From: Crossiella equi
GTDB taxonomy: Bacteria > Actinomycetota > Actinomycetes > Mycobacteriales > Pseudonocardiaceae
Direction: 5' to 3'
Assembly: GCF_017876755.1 (NCBI RefSeq)
Contig: NZ_JAGIOO010000001.1
Span: 7,301,786 to 7,365,785, forward strand
DNA length: 64,000 nucleotides
Shown here one piece after another: positions 51,701 through 64,000 of this stretch. The notes below the pieces were generated by a model that ran no database searches, was not told where the DNA came from, and saw only the letters and a list, made by a program, of their open reading frames with translations. Position 1 is the stretch's first letter, and every line of letters begins with the position of its first letter. The position numbers and the translations under genes were made by a program.

Positions 51701-52300
51701 TCAGCAGGCCAGGGTGGACAGACCGTGCACGGTGTGGCCGAGCACCCGGCTCAGCTGGTCCACCAGCGCCGTGCGGTCGGGGCGGCGGTGGACCAGCCAC
51801 CAGTGGCACACCGACTGCACCATGCCCGCCAGCGCGTAGCGCACCGGCGCCGGAGGCGGGGTGGGCCCGGGCAGCTCGGCGAGCACCTCGGCCAGGGCCG
51901 TCAGGATCGGGTCGGCGGAGGGCCGCCCGAGCCGGTCCGGGGCCGGGTGCGCCAGGTGGAACCGGTACAGGCCCTGGTGCTCCAGCAGCACGGCCAGGTA
52001 GGCCGACACCGCGCCGTGCAGCCAGCGCTCGGGGGTGGCCACCTCGCGCAGCCCGGCCAGCGCGGGCCGCAGCCGGGCCAGCATCAGCTCGGCGGCCCGG
52101 TCGCCCGCCGCCTTGAGCAGCCCGGCCTTGTCGTAGAAGTAGTGGTACAGCAGGGGTTTGCTCACCCCGGCGGCCGCGGCCAGCTGGTCCATGCTGATGC
52201 CCGCGCCGTGCGTGCTGAGCACCCGGATCGCGCAGTCGACGAGCTCCGCCCGGCGCGCGGCCGGGGCCAGCCGCCGACGGGGTCGCAGTGGTGTGTCCAT
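51701..52300 (-). CDS. TetR-family regulator, divergent from biosynthetic cluster
   Basis: A 199-residue TetR. HTH: GISMDQLAAAAGVSKPLLYH followed by YFYDKAGLLKAAGD (about 34-68), then a helical ligand domain. It is divergent from the FAD-dependent gene at 52400; the 100-bp spacer carries a perfect 16-bp dyad, so it most likely represses itself and the cluster. The start ATG at 52300 is the only sensible one; the frame beyond is out-of-frame noise. Confidence 0.92.
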   Translation of the reverse strand: MDTPLRPRRRLAPAARRAELVDCAIRVLSTHGAGISMDQLAAAAGVSKPLLYHYFYDKAGLLKAAGDRAAELMLARLRPALAGLREVATPERWLHGAVSAYLAVLLEHQGLYRFHLAHPAPDRLGRPSADPILTALAEVLAELPGPTPPPAPVRYALAGMVQSVCHWWLVHRRPDRTALVDQLSRVLGHTVHGLSTLAC

Positions 52301-52340: not shown

Positions 52341-52356
52341 CGGATACACGTATCCG
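52341..52356. promoter_or_regulatory. TetR operator in front of the biosynthetic cluster
   Basis: CGGATACACGTATCCG, a perfect 16-bp inverted repeat (7-bp arms, AC centre), 44 nt before the FAD-enzyme start and 41 nt before the tetR start. Ideal place for the adjacent TetR protein to control both. Confidence 0.7.
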
Positions 52357-52399: not shown

Positions 52400-53752
52400 G
52401 TGGTGCTGGTGCCCCAGGAGAAGGTGGACGTCGCGGTGGTCGGCGCCCGGGTGGCCGGTTCGGCCCTGGCGGTGCGGCTGGCCAGGGCCGGGATGCGGGT
52501 CGCGGTGTTCGAGCGGGCGCCGGTGCTCGGGCGCACGCTGTCCACGCACATCTTCCACAGCACGCAGGCCCTGCGCGCGGAGGGTGTGTACGAGGACCTG
52601 GTGGCCGCCGGGGTGCCCCCGCTGCCGGAGGTGCGGGTGCGCATCGACGACGTGCGGCTGGACTTCCACCACCCCGAGGACCCCGGCCTGTGCCCGCCCC
52701 GGGAGCTGCTGGACAACCTGCTGCTGGAGCGCGCCCGCGCGGCCGGGGCCGACGTGCGGCTGGGCAGCCCGGTGCTCGGCCTGCTGCGCGCGGAGGACGG
52801 CCGGGTGCACGGTCTGGAGCACGGCACCCCGGAGGGCCGCGTCCGCCAGGTGCGGGCGCGGCTGGTCGTCGGCGCGGACGGGCGCAGCTCGCCGCTGGCC
52901 CGCTGGGTGGGCGCGCGGCAGTACCTGACCTTCCGCAGCGGCCGGGGCCAGGTGTGGCGGTACTTCCGGGGAAAGCGCCTGCCGAGCAGGCTGCTGTGGC
53001 ACCGGAGCGGTGCCCGGCTCGCGCACATCCTGCCCACCGGTGCGGAGGAGTTCTACCTCTGCGCCCAGCCGCCCGCCGGGGACGCGGTGGACTTCCGCGG
53101 CGAGGGCGCCGACGCGCTGCTGCCGTGGGTGCGGGAGGTCAGCCCGGAGATCGCGGAGCTGGCCGAGGGCGCGCAGGCCGTGGGCGGGCTGCACCGGATG
53201 AGCGGCTATCCGTGCTTCTTCCGGCAGCCCTGCGGGCCCGGCTGGGTGCTGGCCGGGGACGCCGGGCACGCCAAGGACGCCACCATCGGCCACGGCATGA
53301 CCGACGCGCTGCGCAACGTCTCCGCGCTGTCCTCGGCACTGCTGGCCGGGTGGGAGCGGCCCGACCTGCGGGACCGGCTGCACGCCTGGGCCCGGCGGCG
53401 GGATGAGGAGGAGCTCGCCAACTTCTGGTACAGCCAGGACCTGGGCGGCGCCGCGCCGGTGACCGGGGTGCGGCTGGCGATGTTCCGCGACCTGGGCCCG
53501 GCCGGGGTGGCGCGGCTGGACGAGGTCATGGCCGACAAGCTCGACGCGGACGAGCTGTTCACCGCCACCCGGCTGGCCCGGGCCGCGCTGGCGCAGGTGC
53601 GGGGCGGGGCGCCGGTGCCGCGCGTGCTGCGCGAGGCCGCGGACGTGCTGCGCCTGGCCCGGCAGCGGCGGCGCGCGGTGCGCACCGGCGCCGCGCAGGC
53701 CCCCGGCGTGGCCGGAGGGGCCGCGCGCGAGCTCGCGGTGGTGGGCCGGTGA
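52400..53752 (+). CDS. FAD-dependent oxidoreductase, geranylgeranyl-reductase/halogenase-like
   Basis: A 450-residue FAD enzyme. Rossmann motif DVAVVGARVAGSALAVRLA (about 9-27), central GADGRSS motif (RLVVGADGRSSPLAR), and GD motif GWVLAGDAGHAKDATIGHGM near 287, typical of flavin monooxygenases and reductases of the p-hydroxybenzoate/geranylgeranyl-reductase group. No halogenase WxWxIP motif seen. GTG starts at 52400, 52403 and 52409 are all possible. It is the first gene of the cluster, behind the TetR operator; it overlaps the next gene by 4 nt. Probably oxidises or saturates a polyketide/lipid intermediate. Confidence 0.85.
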   Translation: MVLVPQEKVDVAVVGARVAGSALAVRLARAGMRVAVFERAPVLGRTLSTHIFHSTQALRAEGVYEDLVAAGVPPLPEVRVRIDDVRLDFHHPEDPGLCPPRELLDNLLLERARAAGADVRLGSPVLGLLRAEDGRVHGLEHGTPEGRVRQVRARLVVGADGRSSPLARWVGARQYLTFRSGRGQVWRYFRGKRLPSRLLWHRSGARLAHILPTGAEEFYLCAQPPAGDAVDFRGEGADALLPWVREVSPEIAELAEGAQAVGGLHRMSGYPCFFRQPCGPGWVLAGDAGHAKDATIGHGMTDALRNVSALSSALLAGWERPDLRDRLHAWARRRDEEELANFWYSQDLGGAAPVTGVRLAMFRDLGPAGVARLDEVMADKLDADELFTATRLARAALAQVRGGAPVPRVLREAADVLRLARQRRRAVRTGAAQAPGVAGGAARELAVVGR

Positions 53753-55011
53753 GCACCCCGCGATCGCCCTGGGGCCGCGGCACCCCGGCCACCGAACCGC
53801 TGTTGGGCAGGCACACCGCCGACGTCGTCGTGGTCGGCGGCGGGGTGGCCGGGCTGACCCTGGCCCACCGCCTGCGCCGGGACCTGCCCGAGGCGAAGCT
53901 GGTCCTGCTGGAGGCGGTCAGCGTCGGCGGCGGTGCCACCGGGCACAGCACCGGGCTGGCCCGGCCCGGGGTGTGGGGCTCGATGCGGTTGCTGCGCCGC
54001 CGCGCCGGTCCGGCGGCCGCCGACGCGATGACCCGCGCCTCGCTGGCGGGCATGGCGGCGCTGCGCGAGCTCGTCACCACCGAGGGGATCGACTGCGACC
54101 TGGTGTCCGGGCGCATGTTCCAGGTCCCGGTCACCGCCGCGCACGTCGACCGGTACACCGCCGACCTGCCCGAGCTGAACCGGCTCGGCATGCGGGCGGA
54201 GTGGCTGGACCGGCACCCGCACGGCGCGCTGCGGGTCGAACCGCTGTACCAGCTCGACCCGCTGCGGCTGTGCCTCGGGCTGCGCGAGCTGCTGCTGGCC
54301 CGCGGGGTCGCGGTGCACGAGGGCAGCGCCGTGCGGCAGGTGGTCCCGGGCGAGCCGGTGCTGGTGCGCACCGACCACGCCGAGGTGCGCGCCAGCCAGG
54401 TGGTACTGGCCGTGGACGGCTACGCGGGCGCCTTCGGCCTGCCGGTGGTACCGCTGCGCTCGCAGGCCCTGTGCACCGAACCGATCCCCGGCCCGGCGCC
54501 CCTGGCCCCCGGTGACCTGCTCATCGACTCGCGGGCCTTCTTCAACTACGCCCGCCTCGGCCCGGACAACCGGCTCATCCTCGGCGGCGGCCGGGCCGCC
54601 AACCCCCGGGCCGTGCCCGGGCGGATGCCGCACGTGGAGGCGGCGACCTGGCGGCGGCTGGAACGCGAGCTGCACGCCCTGTTCCCCACCCTCGCCGGGA
54701 TCCGCGTGGAACGGCACTGGGCGGGCGTCAGCGGCGCCACCCCGGACTGGATGCCGGTCGTGGGCCGGGTGGACCGGGGCGTGTGGTTCGAGGGCGGCTG
54801 GAACGGCCGCGGCTTCGCCCCCGCCCTGCACTCCGCGGGCTGGCTCGCCGGACAGCTGGCCGCCGCCCTGCACGGCCGTCCCGCCCCGCCGCCCGAGCTG
54901 CCCTGGCACCGGGGCCGGGTGCGCACCCTGCCCGTGCTCAACCGCCTGCGCTACCCGCTGCGCCAGGCCTTCCTCGACCTCTCCGACCGACGATCCCTTG
55001 CCCGGAAGTGA
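53749..55011 (+). CDS. FAD-dependent amine oxidoreductase (DAO family)
   Basis: A 420-residue DAO-type flavoenzyme (glycine/sarcosine oxidase fold). FAD motif DVVVVGGGVAGLTLAHRL near residue 24, substrate-domain region GHSTGLARPG, and a C-terminal GVSGATPDWMPVVGRV....GWNGRGFAPALHSAGWLAG loop typical of gamma-glutamylputrescine/FAD oxidases. It should oxidise an amine or amino acid, or reduce an imine. GTGA overlap with the previous gene. In a cluster with an aminotransferase, it suggests nitrogen handling in the product. Confidence 0.88.
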   Translation: MSTPRSPWGRGTPATEPLLGRHTADVVVVGGGVAGLTLAHRLRRDLPEAKLVLLEAVSVGGGATGHSTGLARPGVWGSMRLLRRRAGPAAADAMTRASLAGMAALRELVTTEGIDCDLVSGRMFQVPVTAAHVDRYTADLPELNRLGMRAEWLDRHPHGALRVEPLYQLDPLRLCLGLRELLLARGVAVHEGSAVRQVVPGEPVLVRTDHAEVRASQVVLAVDGYAGAFGLPVVPLRSQALCTEPIPGPAPLAPGDLLIDSRAFFNYARLGPDNRLILGGGRAANPRAVPGRMPHVEAATWRRLERELHALFPTLAGIRVERHWAGVSGATPDWMPVVGRVDRGVWFEGGWNGRGFAPALHSAGWLAGQLAAALHGRPAPPPELPWHRGRVRTLPVLNRLRYPLRQAFLDLSDRRSLARK

Positions 55012-56235
55012 GTGCCCACGATGCCCCGTCAGCCCGACCCCGCCGACGCCGACCTGTTCGACGCGGACTTCGCCCGTGACCCCTACCCCTCCTACGCCCG
55101 GGTGCGCGCGGTCAGCCCGGTGCGCTACCTGACCCTGCCGACCGGCCTGACCGCCTGGCTGGTCACCGGGTACGCGGAGGTGCGCCAGGCCCTCACCGAC
55201 CCCGCGCTCAGCAAGGAGAGCCGCCACGACGCCGAGGCCGGTGCCAACCTGTCGCCGACCATGGGCCCCAGCATGCTCTTCCTCGACCCGCCCGACCACG
55301 AGCGGCTGCGCAAGCTGGTCAGCGGCGCGTTCACCCGGCGCCGCGTGGAGGCCCTGCACGAGAAGCTGCACGACTCCGCCGACCGGCTCATCGACACCTT
55401 CGCCGCCCGCGGCCACGCCGACCTGATGCGCGAGTTCGCGCTGCGGCTGCCCGTCGGCATGATCGGCGAGCTGCTCGGCGTGCCCGAGCACGACCGGGAC
55501 ACCTTCTTCGACCTCGCCCACGACTACGTCGGCTTTACCCCGGAGACCCGGGACCGGGCGGTGGCCGCGCTCGGCGGGCTCACCGCCTACATGGGCGAGC
55601 TGGTCGAGGCCAAGAAGGCCGACCCGGGCGAGGACCTGGTCAGCGCGCTGGTGCGGGCCCGGGACGGGCAGGGCGCGCTCACCGACGAGGAGCTGCGGGC
55701 CAACACCCTGCTGCTGTTCCTGGCCGGGCACGTCACCACCGCCGGGCTGATCAGCAACGCCACCCTGGCCCTGCTGCGCAACCCCGAGCAGCGCAAGGCG
55801 TTCCTGGCCGACCCGGGGCTGGCGGACAACCTGGTCGAGGAGGCGCTGCGCTACGAGGGACCGGCCGAGCTGTCCACCATGCGCTGGGCCAAGCAGGACA
55901 CCGAGATCGGCGGGGTGGCCGTGGCCAGGGGCGAGCGGGTGCTGGTGTCGCTGGGCGCGGCCAACCGCGACCCGCGCCGCTTCACCGACCCGGACGTCTT
56001 CGACCTGGCCCGCCCGGACGCGGCCCAGCACCTCGGGCTGGGCCACGGCATCCACTACTGCCTCGGCGCGCAGCTGGCCCGCGTCGAGGTCCGCCTGGCC
56101 CTGGTGCGGCTGTTCGACCGGCTGCCCGACCTGGGCCTGGCCGTGCCCTACGAGGACCTGGAGTGGATGCCCGGCATCGGGCGCTCGCCGATGGCGCTGC
56201 CGGTGGCCTTCACCCCAGCGGAGGTGGCCGCGTGA
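55012..56235 (+). CDS. Cytochrome P450, atypical I-helix
   Basis: A 407-residue P450 of normal length. ExxR is in EEALRYEGPAELSTMRWA; the haem loop reads LGLGHGIHYCLGAQLARVE with Cys 350, but the usual Phe is Leu (LGLG, not FGxG). The I-helix has AGHVTT (Val 241) where AGHETT/AGxDT is standard, so the acid of the acid-alcohol pair is missing and O2 activation may be changed. GTG 55012 abuts the preceding stop; ATG 55021 is an alternative. 4-nt overlap with next gene. Confidence 0.9.
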   Translation: MPTMPRQPDPADADLFDADFARDPYPSYARVRAVSPVRYLTLPTGLTAWLVTGYAEVRQALTDPALSKESRHDAEAGANLSPTMGPSMLFLDPPDHERLRKLVSGAFTRRRVEALHEKLHDSADRLIDTFAARGHADLMREFALRLPVGMIGELLGVPEHDRDTFFDLAHDYVGFTPETRDRAVAALGGLTAYMGELVEAKKADPGEDLVSALVRARDGQGALTDEELRANTLLLFLAGHVTTAGLISNATLALLRNPEQRKAFLADPGLADNLVEEALRYEGPAELSTMRWAKQDTEIGGVAVARGERVLVSLGAANRDPRRFTDPDVFDLARPDAAQHLGLGHGIHYCLGAQLARVEVRLALVRLFDRLPDLGLAVPYEDLEWMPGIGRSPMALPVAFTPAEVAA

Positions 56236-56597
56236 CCAGGGCACTGCTGCGCCTGGAGCACGTCGCCGCCTTCGCGCTCTGCCTGTGGCTGCTCCTTGAG
56301 CACTGGGCGGAGGTGCGGCTGTGGCCCGCACTGCTGCTCTTCGCCTACATCGACCTCATCGGCTACCTGCCCGGCCTCCTCGCCTCGCGTGGCGGGCGGC
56401 CGGTGCACCGCGGCTTCCACGTGGCCTACAACGCCACGCACAGCCTGCTCGGCGGTGCCGCGGTGGCCCTGCTGTGGTGCGCGCTCGTGCGCCCGGAGTG
56501 GGCGCTGCTGGCCATCCCGCTGCACCTGTGCGGCGACCGGGGCCTGCTCGGCAACTCGCTGAAGCCCTTCGCCGAACCGTTCGGGGGCAAGGGGTGA
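56232..56597 (+). CDS. Membrane protein, DUF4260-like
   Basis: A 121-residue membrane protein with three or four helices. The order LRLEHVAAFALCLWLL, GYLPGLL, YNATHSLLGG and HLCGDRGLLGNSLKPF resembles DUF4260 proteins (GYLxG, YNxxH, HxxxDRxLGxxLK). Function of the family is unknown. Starts and ends with GTGA overlaps, so it is an integral part of the operon; a helper in lipid handling is possible. Confidence 0.8.
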   Translation: MTRALLRLEHVAAFALCLWLLLEHWAEVRLWPALLLFAYIDLIGYLPGLLASRGGRPVHRGFHVAYNATHSLLGGAAVALLWCALVRPEWALLAIPLHLCGDRGLLGNSLKPFAEPFGGKG

Positions 56598-57592
56598 ACG
56601 CGCTGGCGGTGCTGCGCGCGCACAGCCGCAGCTCCAGCGCCTTCCTGGCCTACAACGACGGCACCCAGCACTTCCACACCCCCGGCGTGGACGGCCTCAT
56701 CGCCTACCGCGCCGCCGGGCGCAGGCACCTCGTGCAGCTGACCGGCCCGTGCGCGGCCGAGCCCGACCGGGCCGGGCTGACCGCCGCGTTCCAGCACTTC
56801 GCGGCCGGGCAGGGCAGACGGGTCACCGCCGTGCAGCTGCTGCGCGACGAGGCCCAGGCCTGCGCCGAGCTGGGCTACGAGGTCAACCAGTTCGGCGCCT
56901 CCTTCAGCATCGACCTGGACCGCTTCACCCTCTCCGGCGGCAAGCTCGCCGAGACCCGCAACCGGCTCAACCAGGCCCGGCGCGCCGGGGTCGTGGTCAC
57001 CGAGGAGTCCACACTGGACGCCCGACTGGCCCTGGAGCTGACCGCGGTGGACCAGGAGTGGTTGCGTGCCAAAGGAAGAGCGGTACGCGAGCTGGGCTTC
57101 ATGGTCGGCGAGCGCGGCGGCCGGGGCGCGTCCGAGCGCAGGCTGTTCGTGGCCCGCGCCGGGGACGGCGTGGCCGCCTACGTCAGCTTCTCCCCGGCCT
57201 ACGGGCCCCGCCCCGGCTGGCTGTACGACCTGACCCGGCGGCACCCCAAGGCCCCGACTGGCGCGGTCGAGGCGATCATCGCGCACGCCGCCGAGGTGTT
57301 CCGGGACGAGGGCGCCGGCGGGGACCGGGGCGCGGGCTGGCTGCACCTGGGCTTCACCCCGTTCGTGCGCCTGGCCGCCGAGTACCGCGTGCCCGGGGCC
57401 GCCAACGGCCTGCTGGACCGGCTGCTGCGGCAGATCGCGGGCAAGGAGCGCTGGCTGTACTCCGCGCGCACCCAGGAGCGGTTCAAGGCCAAGTGGGCCC
57501 CGCACCACGTCGAACCCGAGTACCTGGCCTTCGAGCGCGGCGTGAGCCTGGGCGCGGCCTGGCGGCTGCTGAAGCTGGTCGGTGCGCTGTGA
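56594..57592 (+). CDS. DUF2156-like protein (phosphatidylglycerol lysyltransferase C-terminal type)
   Basis: A 332-residue cytoplasmic double-GNAT protein similar in order to the catalytic half of MprF (DUF2156): FLAYNDGTQHFHTPGVDGLIAYR near 20, IDLDRFTLSGGKLAETRNRLNQARRAG near 130, GWLYDLTRRHPKAPTGAVEAI near 220, LHLGFTPF near 260. No membrane flippase part, so it may transfer an aminoacyl or acyl group to a small molecule. Ends 64 nt before the aldehyde dehydrogenase. Confidence 0.82.
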   Translation: MNALAVLRAHSRSSSAFLAYNDGTQHFHTPGVDGLIAYRAAGRRHLVQLTGPCAAEPDRAGLTAAFQHFAAGQGRRVTAVQLLRDEAQACAELGYEVNQFGASFSIDLDRFTLSGGKLAETRNRLNQARRAGVVVTEESTLDARLALELTAVDQEWLRAKGRAVRELGFMVGERGGRGASERRLFVARAGDGVAAYVSFSPAYGPRPGWLYDLTRRHPKAPTGAVEAIIAHAAEVFRDEGAGGDRGAGWLHLGFTPFVRLAAEYRVPGAANGLLDRLLRQIAGKERWLYSARTQERFKAKWAPHHVEPEYLAFERGVSLGAAWRLLKLVGAL

Positions 57593-57656
57593 GAGGTATC
57601 CGGCCCCCCGCCCGGACGTTCTGTGCCGGTGAGAACACTCGCTGAGAGGAAGTCCG

Positions 57657-59285
57657 ATGAGCCCAACGGATCCGGTGCCCACCTACCTGTCCTCCGTGGC
57701 GGGCAGGGACGTCGGCTCGGACCGCTACGTCTACACCGTCGCCGCGCGGTCGGTGCTGACCGACCTGTTCGGCAGCCTCACCCTCAAGCGCCGCCTGGAA
57801 CAGGGCCAGCTCGACCCGGCCGACGTGGCCGAGCAGGTCGTGGGCCGGTGCGCGCTGGCCGACGAGGACACCATGGCCGCCGCCGTCACCGCGGCCGCGG
57901 CCGCCGCCCCCGAGTGGGGCGCCGCCCCGCTGCGCGTGCGGGTGGCACTGGCCCGGGCGCTGCGCGAGCGGATCCTCGCCGGGCACAAGGAGATCGTGGA
58001 CGTGCTCATCGCCGAGGGCATCCCGCGCGCCCTGGCCGAGTGGCAGGTGGCTGGCATGCTGTCGCTGTCCAGCCAGGAGACCGTGGACTGGCTGTCCGCC
58101 CAGCTGGAACAGGAGTTCCGGCACGGCGACCGGCGGCTGCTGCTGCGCCGACGCGCGGACGGCGTGGTCTGTGTCAACCCGCCGCAGAACGCGCCCGCCG
58201 CCTCCGCCCTGTTCGGCGTCACCGCCCTCATGGGCGGCAACACCGTCGTGGTGCGCGCCCCGCGCAGCGCGCCCTACGGCGTGATGTACCTGCTGCGCGA
58301 GTTCGTCGCCCCGGCCCTGGCCGAGGTCGGCGCCCCGCCCGGCGCGCTCAACGTGTACTGCGGCCGCCCGGGTCCGGCGCTGCGGGGCTGGCTGGCCAGC
58401 CCCGAGGTGAACGACATCTTCTACACCGGCGGCGTGGACCGGGGCCTGGCGCTGGAACGCGACTGCGTGGCCGCGGGCAAGAAGCCCATCCTGGAGCTCG
58501 CGGGCAACGACTGCGTGGTGGTGTGGCGCGACGCCGACCTGGACCTGGCGGTGGAGGCGCTCACCGAGTGCTTCTTCGGCTCCGGCCAGATCTGCATGGT
58601 GCCCAACCAGGCCGTGGTGCACCCCGCCGTGGCCGACGAGCTGCTGGTCCGCCTGCACCGCGCGGTCACCGCGCTGCGCCCCGGCTACCCCGACGAGCCC
58701 GGCGTGCTGCTGTCCCCGGTGCTGCGCGCCGAACGGTTCGCCGCGGTGGTCGAGGACGCGCTTGACCGCGGCGCGGAGCTGGTCTGCGGCGGCGGCCGCC
58801 TGGAGGTCGACGGTGAGGAGACCGACACCGGGCCGTTCCTGGCCCCGACCGTGCTGCGCGTGGACGGGCTGGCCCGCAGCCGCGAGCTCACCGCCGTGCG
58901 GGAGGAGACCTTCTTCCCGCTGCTGCCCGTCGTGGTACCCCGGCCCGCCGCCGACGACGAGCTGCTCGCCGAGATCCTGGCCTTCGTCGACGGCAACCGG
59001 TACGGGCTGCGGAACTCGTTGTGGGCCAAGGACCCCGCCGTGGTCGAGGAGTTCCTGGCCCGGGTCGGCAACGGCGGCCTGCTCAAGGTCAACGACTCGC
59101 ACATCGGCTTCCTGCCGTACCTGCCGACCCACGGCGGCACCGGCCTCACCGGCGGCGTGTTCGGCGAGGCCAACTACCTGGTGCTGCGCACCACCCACCT
59201 ACAGGGCGTCTCCGTCGCGAGGGACGTGCGGCCCAGTGCCGCGGTCTTCGAGGCGTACACCCGTGTCACGAATCCTGGAGCGTGA
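57657..59285 (+). CDS. Aldehyde dehydrogenase family protein
   Basis: A 542-residue ALDH, longer than the usual ~480-500. Conserved NPPQNAPAAS near 185, catalytic Glu 280 (ILELAGND) and nucleophile Cys 313 (GSGQICMVPN). The C-terminal loop is NGGLLKVNDSHIGFLPYLPT. It oxidises an aldehyde, or reduces an acyl thioester. Upstream SD GAGAGGAAG fits ATG 57657. ACAD follows at TGA-ATG, zero spacing. It might supply an aldehyde to the aminotransferase (inference). Confidence 0.88.
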   Translation: MSPTDPVPTYLSSVAGRDVGSDRYVYTVAARSVLTDLFGSLTLKRRLEQGQLDPADVAEQVVGRCALADEDTMAAAVTAAAAAAPEWGAAPLRVRVALARALRERILAGHKEIVDVLIAEGIPRALAEWQVAGMLSLSSQETVDWLSAQLEQEFRHGDRRLLLRRRADGVVCVNPPQNAPAASALFGVTALMGGNTVVVRAPRSAPYGVMYLLREFVAPALAEVGAPPGALNVYCGRPGPALRGWLASPEVNDIFYTGGVDRGLALERDCVAAGKKPILELAGNDCVVVWRDADLDLAVEALTECFFGSGQICMVPNQAVVHPAVADELLVRLHRAVTALRPGYPDEPGVLLSPVLRAERFAAVVEDALDRGAELVCGGGRLEVDGEETDTGPFLAPTVLRVDGLARSRELTAVREETFFPLLPVVVPRPAADDELLAEILAFVDGNRYGLRNSLWAKDPAVVEEFLARVGNGGLLKVNDSHIGFLPYLPTHGGTGLTGGVFGEANYLVLRTTHLQGVSVARDVRPSAAVFEAYTRVTNPGA

Positions 59286-60413
59286 ATGGACCTGCGGTTC
59301 ACAGCCGCCGACCGGGCGGTCTGCGACGAGCTGCTGCCCGGGTTGCGGGAACGGTTGGCCGCGCTGACCCTGGCCGAGCGCGAGGCCCCCGACGGCAAGG
59401 CGATCCAGCTCTTCCGCGAGCACGGCGGCGCCCGGCTCGTGGTGCCCTCGGCCTACGGCGGCACCGGCGGCAGCGCGGTGCAGGCCGTGCACGTGCAGCG
59501 GGCCCTGGGCGCCCTCGCGCCCTCGCTGGCGGTGGCCACGATGATGCACCACTTCTCGGTCGGCTCCCTGTACGGCATGGCCCGGGTCCTGGGCGCGGGC
59601 ACGGACACCGAGGTGCTGCACCGCATCCCGGCGCAGGACCTGCTGCTGGCCTCCGGGTTCGCCGAGGGCATCAGCAACCAGGACATCCTCCGGCCCACGC
59701 TGCGCGCCGAGTCCGACGGCGCGGGCGGCCACCTGCTCAACGGCAGCAAGAAGCCGTGCAGCCTGTCCCGGTCGATGGACCTGCTCTCGGCCAGCGTCGC
59801 GGTGCCCGGCCCGGACGGCCAGACCGACTTCGGCCTGGTGCTCGTGCCCGCCGACAGCCCCGGCCTGTCCGTGCACCCGTTCTGGTCCACCTTCGCCCTG
59901 GCCGGGGCGGAGAGCCACGAGGTGCGCCTGACCGACGTGCCCGTGCCCGAGGGCCGCCTGGTGCGCGCCACCCCGGAGCTGGCCGGGCGCGTGCTCGAGC
60001 TCCAGGTGCTCGGCATGATCTGGTTCCAGCTCAGCGTCTGCTCGGTCTACGCCGGGCTGGCCGGGGCCCTGGTGGACCGCGTGCTGCACCGCGCCCGGGG
60101 CAGCGCCGCCGACCGCGCCGACCTGCTGGTGCGCCACCAGGCCGCCGCGCTGCTCACCGAGGGCCTGGCCCGCCGGGTGGACGCGGGCGGCACCGGCGCG
60201 GACACCCTGGCCGACGCCCTGGTCACCCGGCAGACCGTGCAGCGCGTGGTGGTGCGCACCGCGTCGCTGGCCGCCGAGCTGCTGGGCGGCATGGCCTTCC
60301 TCGCCGGGGACGAGCTCGCCTACCTGGTGGCCGCCGCGCACGCGGTCACCTTCCACCCGCCCGGCCGCACCGGTTCCGAGCTGGTGCTCGCCCACCTGGG
60401 GGAGGCCGCGTGA
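59286..60413 (+). CDS. Acyl-CoA dehydrogenase-like flavoenzyme
   Basis: A 375-residue acyl-CoA dehydrogenase-fold protein. FAD/substrate regions: PSAYGGTGGSAVQAVHVQRA, ASGFAEGISNQDILRPT, LLNGSKKPCSLSRSMDLLSA. The C-terminal segment GGMAFLAGDELAYLVAAAHAVTFHPPGRTGSEL replaces the usual GGxGY...EGTxEI, and no obvious catalytic Glu is seen there. It may act on an acyl-ACP, or be a non-dehydrogenating flavoenzyme. Fused by zero spacing to ALDH upstream and GTGA to the aminotransferase. Confidence 0.85.
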   Translation: MDLRFTAADRAVCDELLPGLRERLAALTLAEREAPDGKAIQLFREHGGARLVVPSAYGGTGGSAVQAVHVQRALGALAPSLAVATMMHHFSVGSLYGMARVLGAGTDTEVLHRIPAQDLLLASGFAEGISNQDILRPTLRAESDGAGGHLLNGSKKPCSLSRSMDLLSASVAVPGPDGQTDFGLVLVPADSPGLSVHPFWSTFALAGAESHEVRLTDVPVPEGRLVRATPELAGRVLELQVLGMIWFQLSVCSVYAGLAGALVDRVLHRARGSAADRADLLVRHQAAALLTEGLARRVDAGGTGADTLADALVTRQTVQRVVVRTASLAAELLGGMAFLAGDELAYLVAAAHAVTFHPPGRTGSELVLAHLGEAA

Positions 60414-61642
60414 GCGCCGACTTCCAGCACACCGCGACCCTGTACCGCACCCACCTCAGCAAGGGCCGCGCCGCGCTCGGCGAGCTGTTCGGCGGCGAGC
60501 TGGAGACCTCGGCGGGCGGTGCCTGGGTGCGCACCAGCAGCGGCCGCGAGCTGCTCAACTGCGGCGGCTACGGCGTGCTGCTGATGGGCTCGCGGCACCC
60601 CAGGGTGGTCGCGGAGGTGCGCACCCAGCTGCACACCCTGCCGGTGGGCACCCGGCTGCTGCTGGAACCGGCCGCGGGCCGCGCCGCCGCCGCGCTGGCC
60701 GCCGTCGCCCCGACCGGGATGACCAAGGTGCACTTCGCCTGCTCCGGCTCGGAGGCGGTGGAGACCGCGATCAAGCTGGCCCGCACGCACGGCCGCACGC
60801 ACCTGGTCTCCGCGGTCAACGGCTACCACGGCAAGACCCTGGGCGCGCTGTCGGTGACCGCGCGGCGCGTCTACCAGGACCCGTTCCGGCCGCTGCTGCC
60901 GAGCGTGAGCCACGTGCGCTACGGCGACACCGAGGCGCTGCGCCAGGAGCTGGCCGCGCACGAGGGCCGGGCCGCGGTGCTGCTGGAGCCCGTGCAGGGC
61001 GAGGCGGGCGTCATCGTGCCGCCCCAGGGCTACCTGCGCGAGGTGGCGCGGCTGTGCCGGGAGTACGGGGCCTTCTTCATCCTGGACGAGGTGCAGACCG
61101 GCCTGGGCCGCCTCGGGCACTGGTGGGGCGCCGACCGCGACCAGGTCGTCCCGGACGCCCTGGTGGTCGGCAAGGCCCTGGGCGGCGGTGTGCTGCCGGT
61201 CTCGGCGGTGCTGGCCACGCCCGCCGCGTTCGCCCCGTTCGACCGGGACCCGTTCCTGCACACCTCCACCTTCTCCGCCAACCCCCTGGCCATGGCCGCG
61301 GTGTGCGGGGCGCTGACCGCGATCATCGAGGACGGCCTGGTCGGCGCGGCCGGGCGCATCGGCCCCCAGCTGCGCCGGGGACTGGCCGACCTGTGCCGGG
61401 AGGTCCTGGGCGAACGGGTGCGCGAGGTGCGCGGGGCGGGCCTGCTGATCGGCATCGAGTGCGCCGACGCCGAGCTGGCCGCGAACCTGCTCGCCGAGCT
61501 GGCCACCGCCGGGGTGATCGCCAACCACTCGCTCAACTCCGGCCGGGTGCTGCGCCTGACCCCACCGGCCGTGCTCAGCGAGACCGAGTCCGACTTCCTG
61601 CTGTGCGCCTTCGCCATCGCGGCCCGGGCGGTGGCGGCATGA
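60410..61642 (+). CDS. Class III aminotransferase
   Basis: A 410-residue PLP enzyme of the acetylornithine/ornithine aminotransferase group. NCGGYGVLLMGSRHP near 50, SGSEAVETAIKLAR, NGYHGKTLGALSV, ILDEVQTGLGRLG, and PLP lysine K255 (VVGKALGGGVLP). It likely aminates an aldehyde or beta-keto intermediate of the acyl chain, making an amine. Coupled both sides by 4-nt overlaps. Confidence 0.9.
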   Translation: MSADFQHTATLYRTHLSKGRAALGELFGGELETSAGGAWVRTSSGRELLNCGGYGVLLMGSRHPRVVAEVRTQLHTLPVGTRLLLEPAAGRAAAALAAVAPTGMTKVHFACSGSEAVETAIKLARTHGRTHLVSAVNGYHGKTLGALSVTARRVYQDPFRPLLPSVSHVRYGDTEALRQELAAHEGRAAVLLEPVQGEAGVIVPPQGYLREVARLCREYGAFFILDEVQTGLGRLGHWWGADRDQVVPDALVVGKALGGGVLPVSAVLATPAAFAPFDRDPFLHTSTFSANPLAMAAVCGALTAIIEDGLVGAAGRIGPQLRRGLADLCREVLGERVREVRGAGLLIGIECADAELAANLLAELATAGVIANHSLNSGRVLRLTPPAVLSETESDFLLCAFAIAARAVAA

Positions 61643-62118
61643 GGCGCGTGCGACTGCTGGCCACCGTGCCCGGCATCAGCCCCGGCACCCTGTTCCAGCT
61701 GCTCACCGACTTCGGCCGCTTCCCCGGCGTGGCCCCGGAGATCCGCTCGGTGCTGGTGCACCCGCCGGAACACCCGGGTGGGCCCCGGCACTCCGACTGG
61801 GAGGTCAACTTCCGGCGCGGGGTGCTGCGCTGGCGGGAGTGGGAGCACCTGGACCCGGTCACCGCCAGCGTCGAGTTCGGCCAGACCGAGGGCGACTTCG
61901 AGCACTTCCGGGGCACCTGGCGGGTCACCCCCGACGGCTCGGACTGCGTGGTCCGCTTCCAGGTCGAGTTCGACTTCGGCATCGCCAGTCTCGCCGAGGC
62001 CATGGAACCCGTCGCGGACCGCCTGCTCCGCACGGCCATGGGCTCGGTGCTGTCCGGCCTGTTCGGCCCGGACACCCAGCTGCACGACTATCCCCTGGTA
62101 GAGAGGAAAACCCTGTGA
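61639..62118 (+). CDS. SRPBCC (polyketide cyclase-like) protein
   Basis: A 159-residue START/SRPBCC protein. N-terminal VPGISPGTLFQLLTDFGRFP and central WEVNFRRGVLRWREWEHLDP, GDFEHFRGTWRV, ending in an amphipathic helix (EAMEPVADRLLRTAMGSVL), as in polyketide aromatase/cyclase and CoQ10-like binding proteins. It likely holds or cyclises the ACP-bound chain. ATGA overlap with aminotransferase, GTGA with ACP. Confidence 0.86.
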   Translation: MRRVRLLATVPGISPGTLFQLLTDFGRFPGVAPEIRSVLVHPPEHPGGPRHSDWEVNFRRGVLRWREWEHLDPVTASVEFGQTEGDFEHFRGTWRVTPDGSDCVVRFQVEFDFGIASLAEAMEPVADRLLRTAMGSVLSGLFGPDTQLHDYPLVERKTL

Positions 62119-62354
62119 ACGCCCTGCACGAGCAGCTCACCGCCGTCCTGACCAGCCGCTTCGGCGTGCCCGCCGCCGAGGTCCGCCCGGAGGCCACCTT
62201 CGCCGAGCTCGACCTGGACTCCCTCGCCCTGGTCGAGCTCGGTCTGGTGGCGGAGAAGGAGTTCGGGGTCCGCATCAAGGACGACGAGGTGTCCACCTCG
62301 GACAGCCTCGAGGTGATCGTGAAGCTGATCGAGACCAAGCGCGAGGCCCTCTGA
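62115..62354 (+). CDS. Acyl carrier protein
   Basis: A 79-residue acidic ACP. Phosphopantetheine Ser 36 lies in ELDLDSLALVELGL. The chain would be tethered here for elongation by the KAS that follows (TGATG overlap). Short linker-free, type II architecture. Not the housekeeping ACP as it sits within the cluster. Confidence 0.92.
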   Translation: MNALHEQLTAVLTSRFGVPAAEVRPEATFAELDLDSLALVELGLVAEKEFGVRIKDDEVSTSDSLEVIVKLIETKREAL

Positions 62355-63571
62355 TGGCCGGGCTCGCCGTGACCGGCCTCGGCCTGGTCACCACCGCGGG
62401 CATCGGTGTCGAGGCGAGCTGGGAGGGGGTGCTGCGCGGGGAGTCCACCGCCACCCCCGACCCCGGCCTGGCGGGCATGGCCACCGACTTCTCCTGCCGC
62501 GTCCCCGGGTTCGACGCCGACGCCCTGCTCGGCCGCCGCACCGCCTGGCGCCAGGACCGCTGCACCCACCTGGCCCGGGTGGCCGCGCGCGAGGCGGTCG
62601 CCGACAGCGGCCTGGACCCGGCGTCCTGGGACGGTGCCCGGGTCGGTGTGGTCGTGGGCAACTCCCTCGGCGGCAGCGGCACCTTCGAGGCCCAGCACGA
62701 CGTGCTCACCCGCGAGGGCGAGCAGCAGGTCACCCCGCTGCTCATCCCCATGGCGGGCACCGGGTCGCCGACCGCGTGGCTGACGCTGGACCTGCACGCG
62801 CTCGGCCCGAGCCTGGCCCCGGCCACCGCCTGCGCCTCCGGGGCCACCGCGCTCGGCGTGGCCAGGGACTGGCTCACCACCGGGCTCTGCGACGTGGTCA
62901 TCGCCGGGGGCGCGGAGTCCGCGCTGTCCCGGCTGATCATGGCCGGGTTCGGGCAGCTCGGCGCGCTCTCCCGCCGCGGCGCCACCCCGGGCGAGGCCTG
63001 CCGCCCCTTCGACGCCGACCGCGACGGGTTCGTCGCCGGTGAGGGCGCCGGGATCCTGGTGCTGGAACGGCTGGCGGACGCCCGCGCCCGCGGGGCCCGC
63101 GTGCACGCCGTGCTCGCCGGGTACGGCGGCAGCTCCGACGCCCACCACATCACCGCGCCGCACCCCGGCGGCACGGGCGTGGAACGCGCCACCCGCACCG
63201 CGCTCGCCGAGGCCGGACTGTCCACATCGGACATCGACCACGTGAACGCGCACGGCACCTCCACCCCGCTCAACGACGCCGTCGAGGGCGCGCTCGTCCA
63301 GCGCCTGTACGGCGACCGGGCGTGCGTCACCTCGGTCAAGGGCGTGCTCGGCCACTCCCTCGGCGCGGCCGGTGCGATCGAGGCGGTGCTGACCGTGCTG
63401 ACCGTGCGTGAGGGCCTGGTGCCGCCGACCGCCAACCTGGACCGCCTCGACCCGCGCCTGGACCTGGACGTGGTGACCAAGGTGCCGCGGCGGACCGAGG
63501 TCCGGGCCGCGGTGAGCAACTCCTTCGGCTTCGGCGGCTCCAACGGCGTGATCGTGGTGACGCGTGACTGA
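62354..63571 (+). CDS. Beta-ketoacyl-ACP synthase II (KAS II)
   Basis: A 405-residue KAS with a full Cys-His-His triad: Cys 160 (ATACASGAT), His 300 (NAHGTSTPLND), His 334 (GVLGHSLGAAGA), so it is a condensing enzyme and not a chain-length factor. Gly-rich ending SNSFGFGGSNGVI. It likely elongates with malonyl-ACP. No KAS III or acyltransferase is seen before the window edge. It overlaps the next start by 8 nt. Confidence 0.92.
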   Translation: MAGLAVTGLGLVTTAGIGVEASWEGVLRGESTATPDPGLAGMATDFSCRVPGFDADALLGRRTAWRQDRCTHLARVAAREAVADSGLDPASWDGARVGVVVGNSLGGSGTFEAQHDVLTREGEQQVTPLLIPMAGTGSPTAWLTLDLHALGPSLAPATACASGATALGVARDWLTTGLCDVVIAGGAESALSRLIMAGFGQLGALSRRGATPGEACRPFDADRDGFVAGEGAGILVLERLADARARGARVHAVLAGYGGSSDAHHITAPHPGGTGVERATRTALAEAGLSTSDIDHVNAHGTSTPLNDAVEGALVQRLYGDRACVTSVKGVLGHSLGAAGAIEAVLTVLTVREGLVPPTANLDRLDPRLDLDVVTKVPRRTEVRAAVSNSFGFGGSNGVIVVTRD

Positions 63572-64000
63572 CGGAGGGAACCTGCTGGCGGGCAAGAAGA
63601 TCCTCGTCACCGGCGTGCTCACGGAGAGCTCGATCGCCTTCGCCGCGGCCCGGCTGGCCCAGCGGCAGGGCGCGGAGGTGCTGCTCACCGGGTTCGGCCG
63701 CGGTCTGCGCCTGACCACCGCGATGGCCGAGCGGCTGCCCCGGCCGTGCGAGGTGCTGGAGCTGGACGTCACCCGGCCCGAGCAGCTGGCGGCCGTGGCC
63801 GCCGAGGTGGACCACCGCTGGGGCGTGCTGGACGGCGTGCTGCACTCGGTGGCCTTCGCCCCCGCCGGTGCCCTCGGCGGCGGGTTCCTCACCGCGGACT
63901 GGGCGGAGGTGGGCACCGCGCTGCACATCTCCACCTACTCCTTCGCCGCCTTCGGCCGCGTGTTCGGGCCGCTGCTCGCCCGCTCCGCCACCGGCAGCCT
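63564..64000 (+). CDS. Enoyl-ACP reductase, InhA/FabI-like (3' end outside window)
   Basis: The visible 145 residues are a divergent SDR of the InhA type: GKKILVTGVLTESSIAFAAA (modified Rossmann motif), RLAQRQGAEVLLTGFGR, ELDVTRPEQL, and LDGVLHSVAFAP, closely following the order of mycobacterial InhA. It reduces enoyl-ACP with NADH. The catalytic Tyr region STYSFAAF (ISAYS-like) is visible at the end. GTG 63564 is assumed, overlapping the KAS stop by 8 nt. The C-terminus lies beyond base 64000. Confidence 0.88.
   Translation, partial: MTDGGNLLAGKKILVTGVLTESSIAFAAARLAQRQGAEVLLTGFGRGLRLTTAMAERLPRPCEVLELDVTRPEQLAAVAAEVDHRWGVLDGVLHSVAFAPAGALGGGFLTADWAEVGTALHISTYSFAAFGRVFGPLLARSATGS

Follow-up and report, generated by a model that had tools for sequence, protein, structure and literature searches.

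Judged from its gene content, the operon that begins at position 52400 of a 64,000-nucleotide window of the Crossiella equi genome (positions 7301786–7365785 of the one contig, 9.44 Mb long, that makes up the genome; family Pseudonocardiaceae) is probably an aliphatic nitrogen–nitrogen (N–N) bond cluster of the valanimycin/azodyrecin type, in a variant that lacks the diiron oxygenase VlmB. The cluster encodes a flavoenzyme of the DAO family, and we consider it fairly likely that the pathway is a VlmB-less, DAO-containing version of the valanimycin-type route in which the DAO-family enzyme acts on the hydrazine. What sequence establishes is the presence of the genes and of the VlmO residues, the lack of VlmB and a repeated exchange between VlmB and DAO. 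The genes on which the argument turns are as follows.

52400..53752, + strand: FAD monooxygenase-like protein, FMO1 (Pfam FAD_binding_3, E 5.4e-18).
53749..55011, + strand: DAO-family FAD oxidoreductase, proposed stand-in for VlmB (Pfam DAO, E 1e-50; restricted to VlmB-less loci).
55012..56235 (start 55012 or 55021), + strand: cytochrome P450 (Pfam p450, E 7e-32).
56232..56597, + strand: DUF4260 protein, VlmO-like candidate hydrazine-forming membrane enzyme (Pfam DUF4260, E 3.2e-5, under the gathering score; D41, H70, H98, D102).
56594..57592, + strand: DUF2156/LPG_synthase_C protein, VlmA-like candidate aminoacyl-tRNA-dependent transferase (Pfam, E 4.7e-54).
57657..59285 (start 57657 or 57675), + strand: aldehyde dehydrogenase (ALDH) family protein, proposed acyl reductase (Pfam Aldedh, E 1.3e-57).
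59286..60413, + strand: acyl-CoA-dehydrogenase-fold flavoprotein, VlmH-like candidate amine N-hydroxylase (chain matches to DszC and a nitrososynthase).
60410..61642, + strand: class III aminotransferase (Pfam, E 2.4e-81).

As outlined in a review (PMC11705231), VlmH and VlmR of the valanimycin pathway N-hydroxylate an amine, VlmA esterifies the product with serine from seryl-tRNA, VlmO rearranges the ester to a hydrazine and VlmB oxidizes the hydrazine to the azoxy group. VlmA itself has been described as an aminoacyl-tRNA-dependent transferase with a GNAT fold (PMC12945691). Azodyrecin clusters combine an acyl-derived amine with the same core; there Ady6 is weakly DUF4260-like, and the model used for VlmA is PF09924 (LPG_synthase_C) (PMC9379638).

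The assignment of the core genes starts from the four residues that the review lists as essential in VlmO, namely D51, H82, H110 and D114 (PMC11705231). Judged against that list, the DUF4260 protein of the window carries all four, as D41, H70, H98 and D102, which do not vary among 18 aligned relatives. The same residues are kept in 114/114 aligned loci, and they stand at exactly positions 51, 82, 110 and 114 in 98 of the 108 VlmO-like gene calls of at least 140 aa. The VlmA-like protein shares 38–78% identity with its counterparts in related loci, and the VlmH-like protein, assigned by fold family and place (DszC and nitrososynthase matches among solved structures), shares 41–59% with counterparts outside Crossiella. 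Genes for ALDH, VlmH-like, aminotransferase, SRPBCC, VlmO-like and VlmA-like proteins recur as a group across loci. Because the DUF4260 and DUF2156 proteins form a VlmO/VlmA-like pair, an amine is very probably N-hydroxylated and esterified with an aminoacyl-tRNA-derived amino acid, and the ester then rearranged to a hydrazine.

That the pair performs other chemistry without making an N–N bond, stopping at an aminoacyl hydroxylamine or yielding an aminoacylated lipid, is very improbable: the weak, sub-threshold Pfam match of the DUF4260 protein and the additional matches of VlmA-like proteins to MprF-type aminoacyl-phospholipid synthases would allow it, but the four residues are retained throughout, and the VlmO-like gene accompanies VlmA- and VlmH-like genes in VlmB-type loci likewise. 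Least probable of all is a plain fatty-amine or amino-lipid cluster without an N–N step, as the preliminary description of this DNA had suggested. The ALDH, aminotransferase, acyl carrier protein (ACP), ketoacyl synthase II (KAS II) and enoyl reductase genes do fit its idea of an acyl chain that is aminated and then oxidized, but that idea misses the N–N core and gives no account of the VlmO-, VlmA- and VlmH-like genes, although they are jointly conserved in 5/5 Crossiella genomes. Nor does its failure to match the visible parts to a known amine or lipid pathway stand, since the cluster fits the class of valanimycin, azodyrecin, KA57-A and elaiomycin as a VlmB-less variant. A prodigiosin/tambjamine-type amine pathway was rejected, as the aminotransferase matches PigE at family level only (300.7 bits against a cut-off of 850).

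Neighbourhoods of VlmA- or VlmO-like genes were sampled from the family, the class and a Streptomyces-like genus and scanned with profiles in six frames. The family set gave a VlmA-like match at 1e-20 in 31/297 genomes, the weakest being probably ordinary MprF proteins; the class set gave a VlmO-like match in 8/394 genomes, the window genome included; and the heavily sampled Streptomyces-like genus gave one in 82/392, with 83 of 86 VlmO places read (left out were one at a contig start and two partial matches). The resulting 114 distinct loci are stretches of at most 20 kb, which miss genes beyond ~10 kb. L054 duplicates L091 and was removed; L106 entered the DAO-type group once the adjoining stretch L176 had been read; and L052, L061 and L085, in which a VlmA-like gene is seen but no VlmO-like one, do not belong to the 114. 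Profile seeds came partly from the same loci (six for VlmB; 11 for DAO, including the window), and the profiles for FAD monooxygenase, P450, acyltransferase and KAS III were built from 1–4 members each, leaving other types uncounted. A score of 200 bits, the cut-off used for DAO, is not enough on its own to tell pathway DAOs from others, which reach 229; the weakest-scoring pathway DAO, a copy truncated at an edge in L126, has 230 bits, and all other pathway DAOs score at least 392.

Within the stretches read, the ferritin-type VlmB alone was found in 76 loci, DAO alone in 32, both in none and neither in six. Three of the six (L112, L116 and L148) are situated close to a contig end, an explanation that does not apply to L057, L081 and L136. 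Fisher's test of this exclusivity gave p 5.7e-21 on the counts before final corrections; as it ignores kinship, the trees described below are the better test. DAO-type clusters make up 23 of the 85 loci covered in the Streptomyces-like genus and occur in all five Crossiella genomes examined. The profile scan detected no VlmB in the window cluster. A VlmB acting from elsewhere in the genome was also discarded, because the two weak genome-wide matches are R2-like ligand-binding oxidases. Whole-genome searches of 20 family genomes returned a strong VlmB match in 11; it was absent from the five Crossiella genomes and from G059, G157, G273 and G295.

The exchange between VlmB and DAO has occurred repeatedly and not as one event on both protein trees constructed. 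On a quick tree of the VlmH-like proteins (109 loci) the minimum number of VlmB/DAO state changes is five, and on a quick tree of the aminotransferases (102 loci) it is six; a single DAO clade is rejected by the approximately unbiased test (p-AU 3e-42; 30 vs 74 rows). In the VlmH tree the sister group of the Crossiella clusters consists of VlmB-type clusters that likewise carry the KAS and ACP genes. The 32 pathway DAOs themselves group apart from 11 other DAO proteins, with moderate support (82/66; 81% of bootstrap trees) and long-branch warnings, and no second DAO was matched in the window genome at 1e-10.

The place that the DAO gene occupies, that of VlmB in otherwise similar clusters, would also suit an end product that is still an azoxide, with the DAO, the FAD monooxygenase and the P450 jointly replacing VlmB and carrying the hydrazine through the azo to the azoxy stage. 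FAD monooxygenases of the two profiled types are found in 10/32 DAO loci and 0/76 VlmB loci, which agrees with such a route. Against it, 17/32 DAO loci carry a WS/DGAT-type acyltransferase (0/76 VlmB loci) without a P450 or FAD monooxygenase of the profiled types. VlmB-type and DAO-type clusters moreover coexist in one genome twice (L048 and L056 in G022; L077 and L082 in G429), which suggests different products. We regard the azoxide outcome as unlikely.

Several loci depart from the two main types. In L057, L081 and L052 a VlmA-type locus lies among large polyketide synthase genes with neither VlmB nor DAO seen, and a Baeyer–Villiger-like FAD monooxygenase, named by eye, lies near VlmA. L160 and L162 are DAO-type and encode VlmO, VlmA, SRPBCC and a flavin reductase, with no VlmH, aminotransferase or acyl reductase within 20 kb; they may draw on another amine source. 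L136 and its left neighbour L178 encode VlmO, ALDH, aminotransferase and SRPBCC, with no VlmA, VlmH, VlmB or DAO in the stretches read, and perhaps represent a split cluster.

For the proposed pathway, in which we infer every reaction, the amino acid, the chain length and the product, the ALDH would reduce an acyl thioester to an aldehyde and the class III aminotransferase would convert it to an amine. The VlmH-like flavoprotein would N-hydroxylate this amine. The VlmA-like protein would transfer an amino acid from an aminoacyl-tRNA to the resulting hydroxylamine, forming an ester that the VlmO-like DUF4260 protein would rearrange to an alkyl-hydrazino acid. At the point where VlmB forms the azo and azoxy groups in known clusters, the DAO-family flavoenzyme would oxidize the hydrazino acid, most likely at a C–N bond, to a hydrazone or, after hydrolysis, to a terminal alkylhydrazine, and the P450 and FAD monooxygenase would tailor the product. 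ACP, KAS II, enoyl reductase and MaoC, joined in the window strain by a short-chain dehydrogenase/reductase (SDR), would make or extend the chain on the amine or the amino-acid side.

The role given to the DAO leans on enzymes of other N–N pathways. In the review's account, the DAO-family enzyme Spb39, from a pathway of the cupin/MetRS type, yields hydrazinoacetic acid, whereas Apy10, which belongs to one family with Spb39 and Tri27, breaks the Cα–N bond and so releases pyruvate and a terminal hydrazine (PMC11705231). In all three systems, as in Crossiella, a DAO-superfamily FAD enzyme is encoded beside genes for N–N bond formation, and by analogy a hydrazino acid would be its expected substrate; the pathways differ in that cupin/MetRS-type synthetases make the hydrazine, and the likeness rests on family and context. 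Since these enzymes are reported to oxidize hydrazino acids, we propose by analogy that DAO-type clusters make hydrazone-, hydrazide- or hydrazine-type products and not azoxides. The pathway DAOs come nearest, far below the cut-off, to models of aminophosphonate oxidoreductase and L-pipecolate oxidase.

Several points weigh against a DAO acting on a VlmO-made hydrazine. The window copy of the DUF4260 protein is ~10 N-terminal residues shorter than its relatives, and the AlphaFold models are poor (mean predicted local distance difference test score 56.1 for DUF4260 and 38.0 for DAO). Likeness to VlmO, VlmA, VlmH, VlmB, Spb39 and Apy10 is drawn from Pfam, residue positions and gene context. The Crossiella DAOs sit on long branches, and their grouping with the remaining pathway DAOs is moderately supported (82/66). 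No flavin reductase corresponding to VlmR gave a profile match of at least 60 bits in the 20-kb stretch L010, although a reductase encoded elsewhere in the genome could fill this role. Finally, the DAO substrate could be something other than a hydrazine, and the P450 or FAD monooxygenase could still yield an azoxide.

The azodyrecin clusters (ady/azd; Streptomyces sp. RM72, A1C6 and P8-A2) share the sequence of acyl group, aldehyde and amine through a dehydrogenase and a pyridoxal-phosphate-dependent transaminase, the VlmH-type N-hydroxylase, the VlmA-type transferase, the DUF4260/VlmO-type protein and the lack of an aminoacyl-tRNA synthetase gene. They also encode the VlmB-type Ady8, a flavin reductase, a methyltransferase and a desaturase, none of which is present in the Crossiella cluster, whereas the latter has DAO, P450, FAD monooxygenase, ACP, KAS II, enoyl reductase and MaoC. 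The valanimycin (vlm) cluster likewise shares VlmH-, VlmA- and VlmO-type enzymes, but differs in its valine-derived amine and in its own seryl-tRNA synthetase, VlmB, VlmR and exo-olefin enzymes, none of which was found in the Crossiella cluster.

Within the stretches read, accessory genes show patterns across the loci. The acyl reductase is an ALDH in 75/114 loci and a NAD_binding_4 (male-sterility-type) reductase in 27/114. The two never occur together, in support of a reductive function of the ALDH. SRPBCC accompanies 102 of 103 loci with an aminotransferase and two of 11 without, and is thus probably part of the acyl-to-amine module. That module occurs in several loci without KAS or ACP genes, which marks the latter as an optional add-on. 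KAS III, whose reported absence from the cluster holds to the end of the operon, is encoded in 46/76 VlmB loci against 0/32 DAO loci, so that its lack is not peculiar to the window. In the Streptomyces-like DAO loci the WS/DGAT-type enzyme could acylate the DAO product. Crossiella, which has the P450 and FAD monooxygenase in place of such an acyltransferase, probably tailors its product in another way.

The first gene, FMO1, was also considered as a flavin-dependent halogenase, since its PDB matches include halogenases. The WxWxIP motif of such halogenases was not seen in the translation, and the gene is accordingly read as a monooxygenase.

The remaining features complete the operon and its borders; coordinates beyond 64000 are continued past the window.

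51701..52300, − strand: TetR-family regulator, divergent from the operon (Pfam TetR_N, E 1.5e-11; position conserved across the four further Crossiella genomes).
52341..52356, no strand: inverted repeat in the tetR–operon gap, candidate TetR operator (one match in the window, 0/100 shuffles).
61639..62118 (start 61639 or 61648), + strand: SRPBCC protein (Pfam Polyketide_cyc, E 2.4e-17).
62115..62354, + strand: ACP (Pfam PP-binding, E 8.9e-11).
62354..63571, + strand: KAS II (Pfam ketoacyl-synt, E 2.9e-41).
63564..64000 in the window, ending at 64367, + strand: InhA-like enoyl reductase (Pfam adh_short_C2, E 7.5e-67 for the whole gene).
64364–64849, + strand, outside the window: MaoC dehydratase.
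64846–65589, + strand, outside the window: SDR.
65739–68954, outside the window: SARP/AfsR-type regulator.

The cluster is thus flanked by the divergent TetR-family gene on the left and the SARP/AfsR-type regulator on the right. All genes named in the preliminary description were recovered in place, on the + strand and with Pfam support, weak for DUF4260, and the rightward extension it called for added the end of the enoyl reductase, MaoC, SDR and the regulator. Its count of thirteen genes becomes 12 within the window from 52400, the last cut by the edge, and 14 for the whole run. Junctions overlap by 1–8 nt, as it had noted, or nearly abut, with one exception, the DUF2156–ALDH gap of 64 nt (82 nt with the ALDH start at 57675).

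The DUF4260 gene is present in 5/5 Crossiella genomes examined, and gene order is kept in the other four at 67–86% protein identity, which argues that the cluster is not a chance assembly. In those four the SDR gene at the operon end is absent and the regulator directly follows MaoC. Two genomes have an extra opposite-strand gene between the VlmA-like (DUF2156) and ALDH genes (L043:10927-11613 and L045:9327-10013), a trypsin-like protease by eye in L043, with the L045 copy of the same position and length; given this insert, a separate promoter probably drives the second half of the cluster in these two genomes. The inverted repeat was not seen whole in the other four genomes, and a TetR operator common to the genus was set aside after inspection by eye found none.

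A survey of VlmA/VlmH pairs reported VlmB, VlmO and VlmR as highly conserved around VlmA (PMC9379638); its main text does not mention a DAO-type subset, and searches of an open-access library showed no paper describing one. The alkylhydrazides (hydrazidomycins, geralcins, elaiomycins B and C), which are N-acylated alkyl- or alkenylhydrazines, may be the DAO-type product class; hydrazidomycin D, for example, is described as an acetylhydrazide with an alkenyl group and N-acylation (PMC6344404). Searches of the open-access library brought up no gene cluster for the alkylhydrazides. We tentatively suggest, at somewhat under even chances, that VlmO-made hydrazino acids meet two fates set by the oxidase, VlmB leading to azoxides and DAO to hydrazones or terminal alkylhydrazines that subsequently undergo acylation or other tailoring, and that DAO-type clusters include the missing genetic origin of hydrazidomycins and geralcins. 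Enzymes that make N–N bonds are few and are wanted in biocatalysis and drug discovery. If the suggestion is true, the recurrent and exclusive oxidase swap would be a readable rule that predicts the N–N group of unstudied clusters, and it supplies testable candidate genes for the alkylhydrazides.

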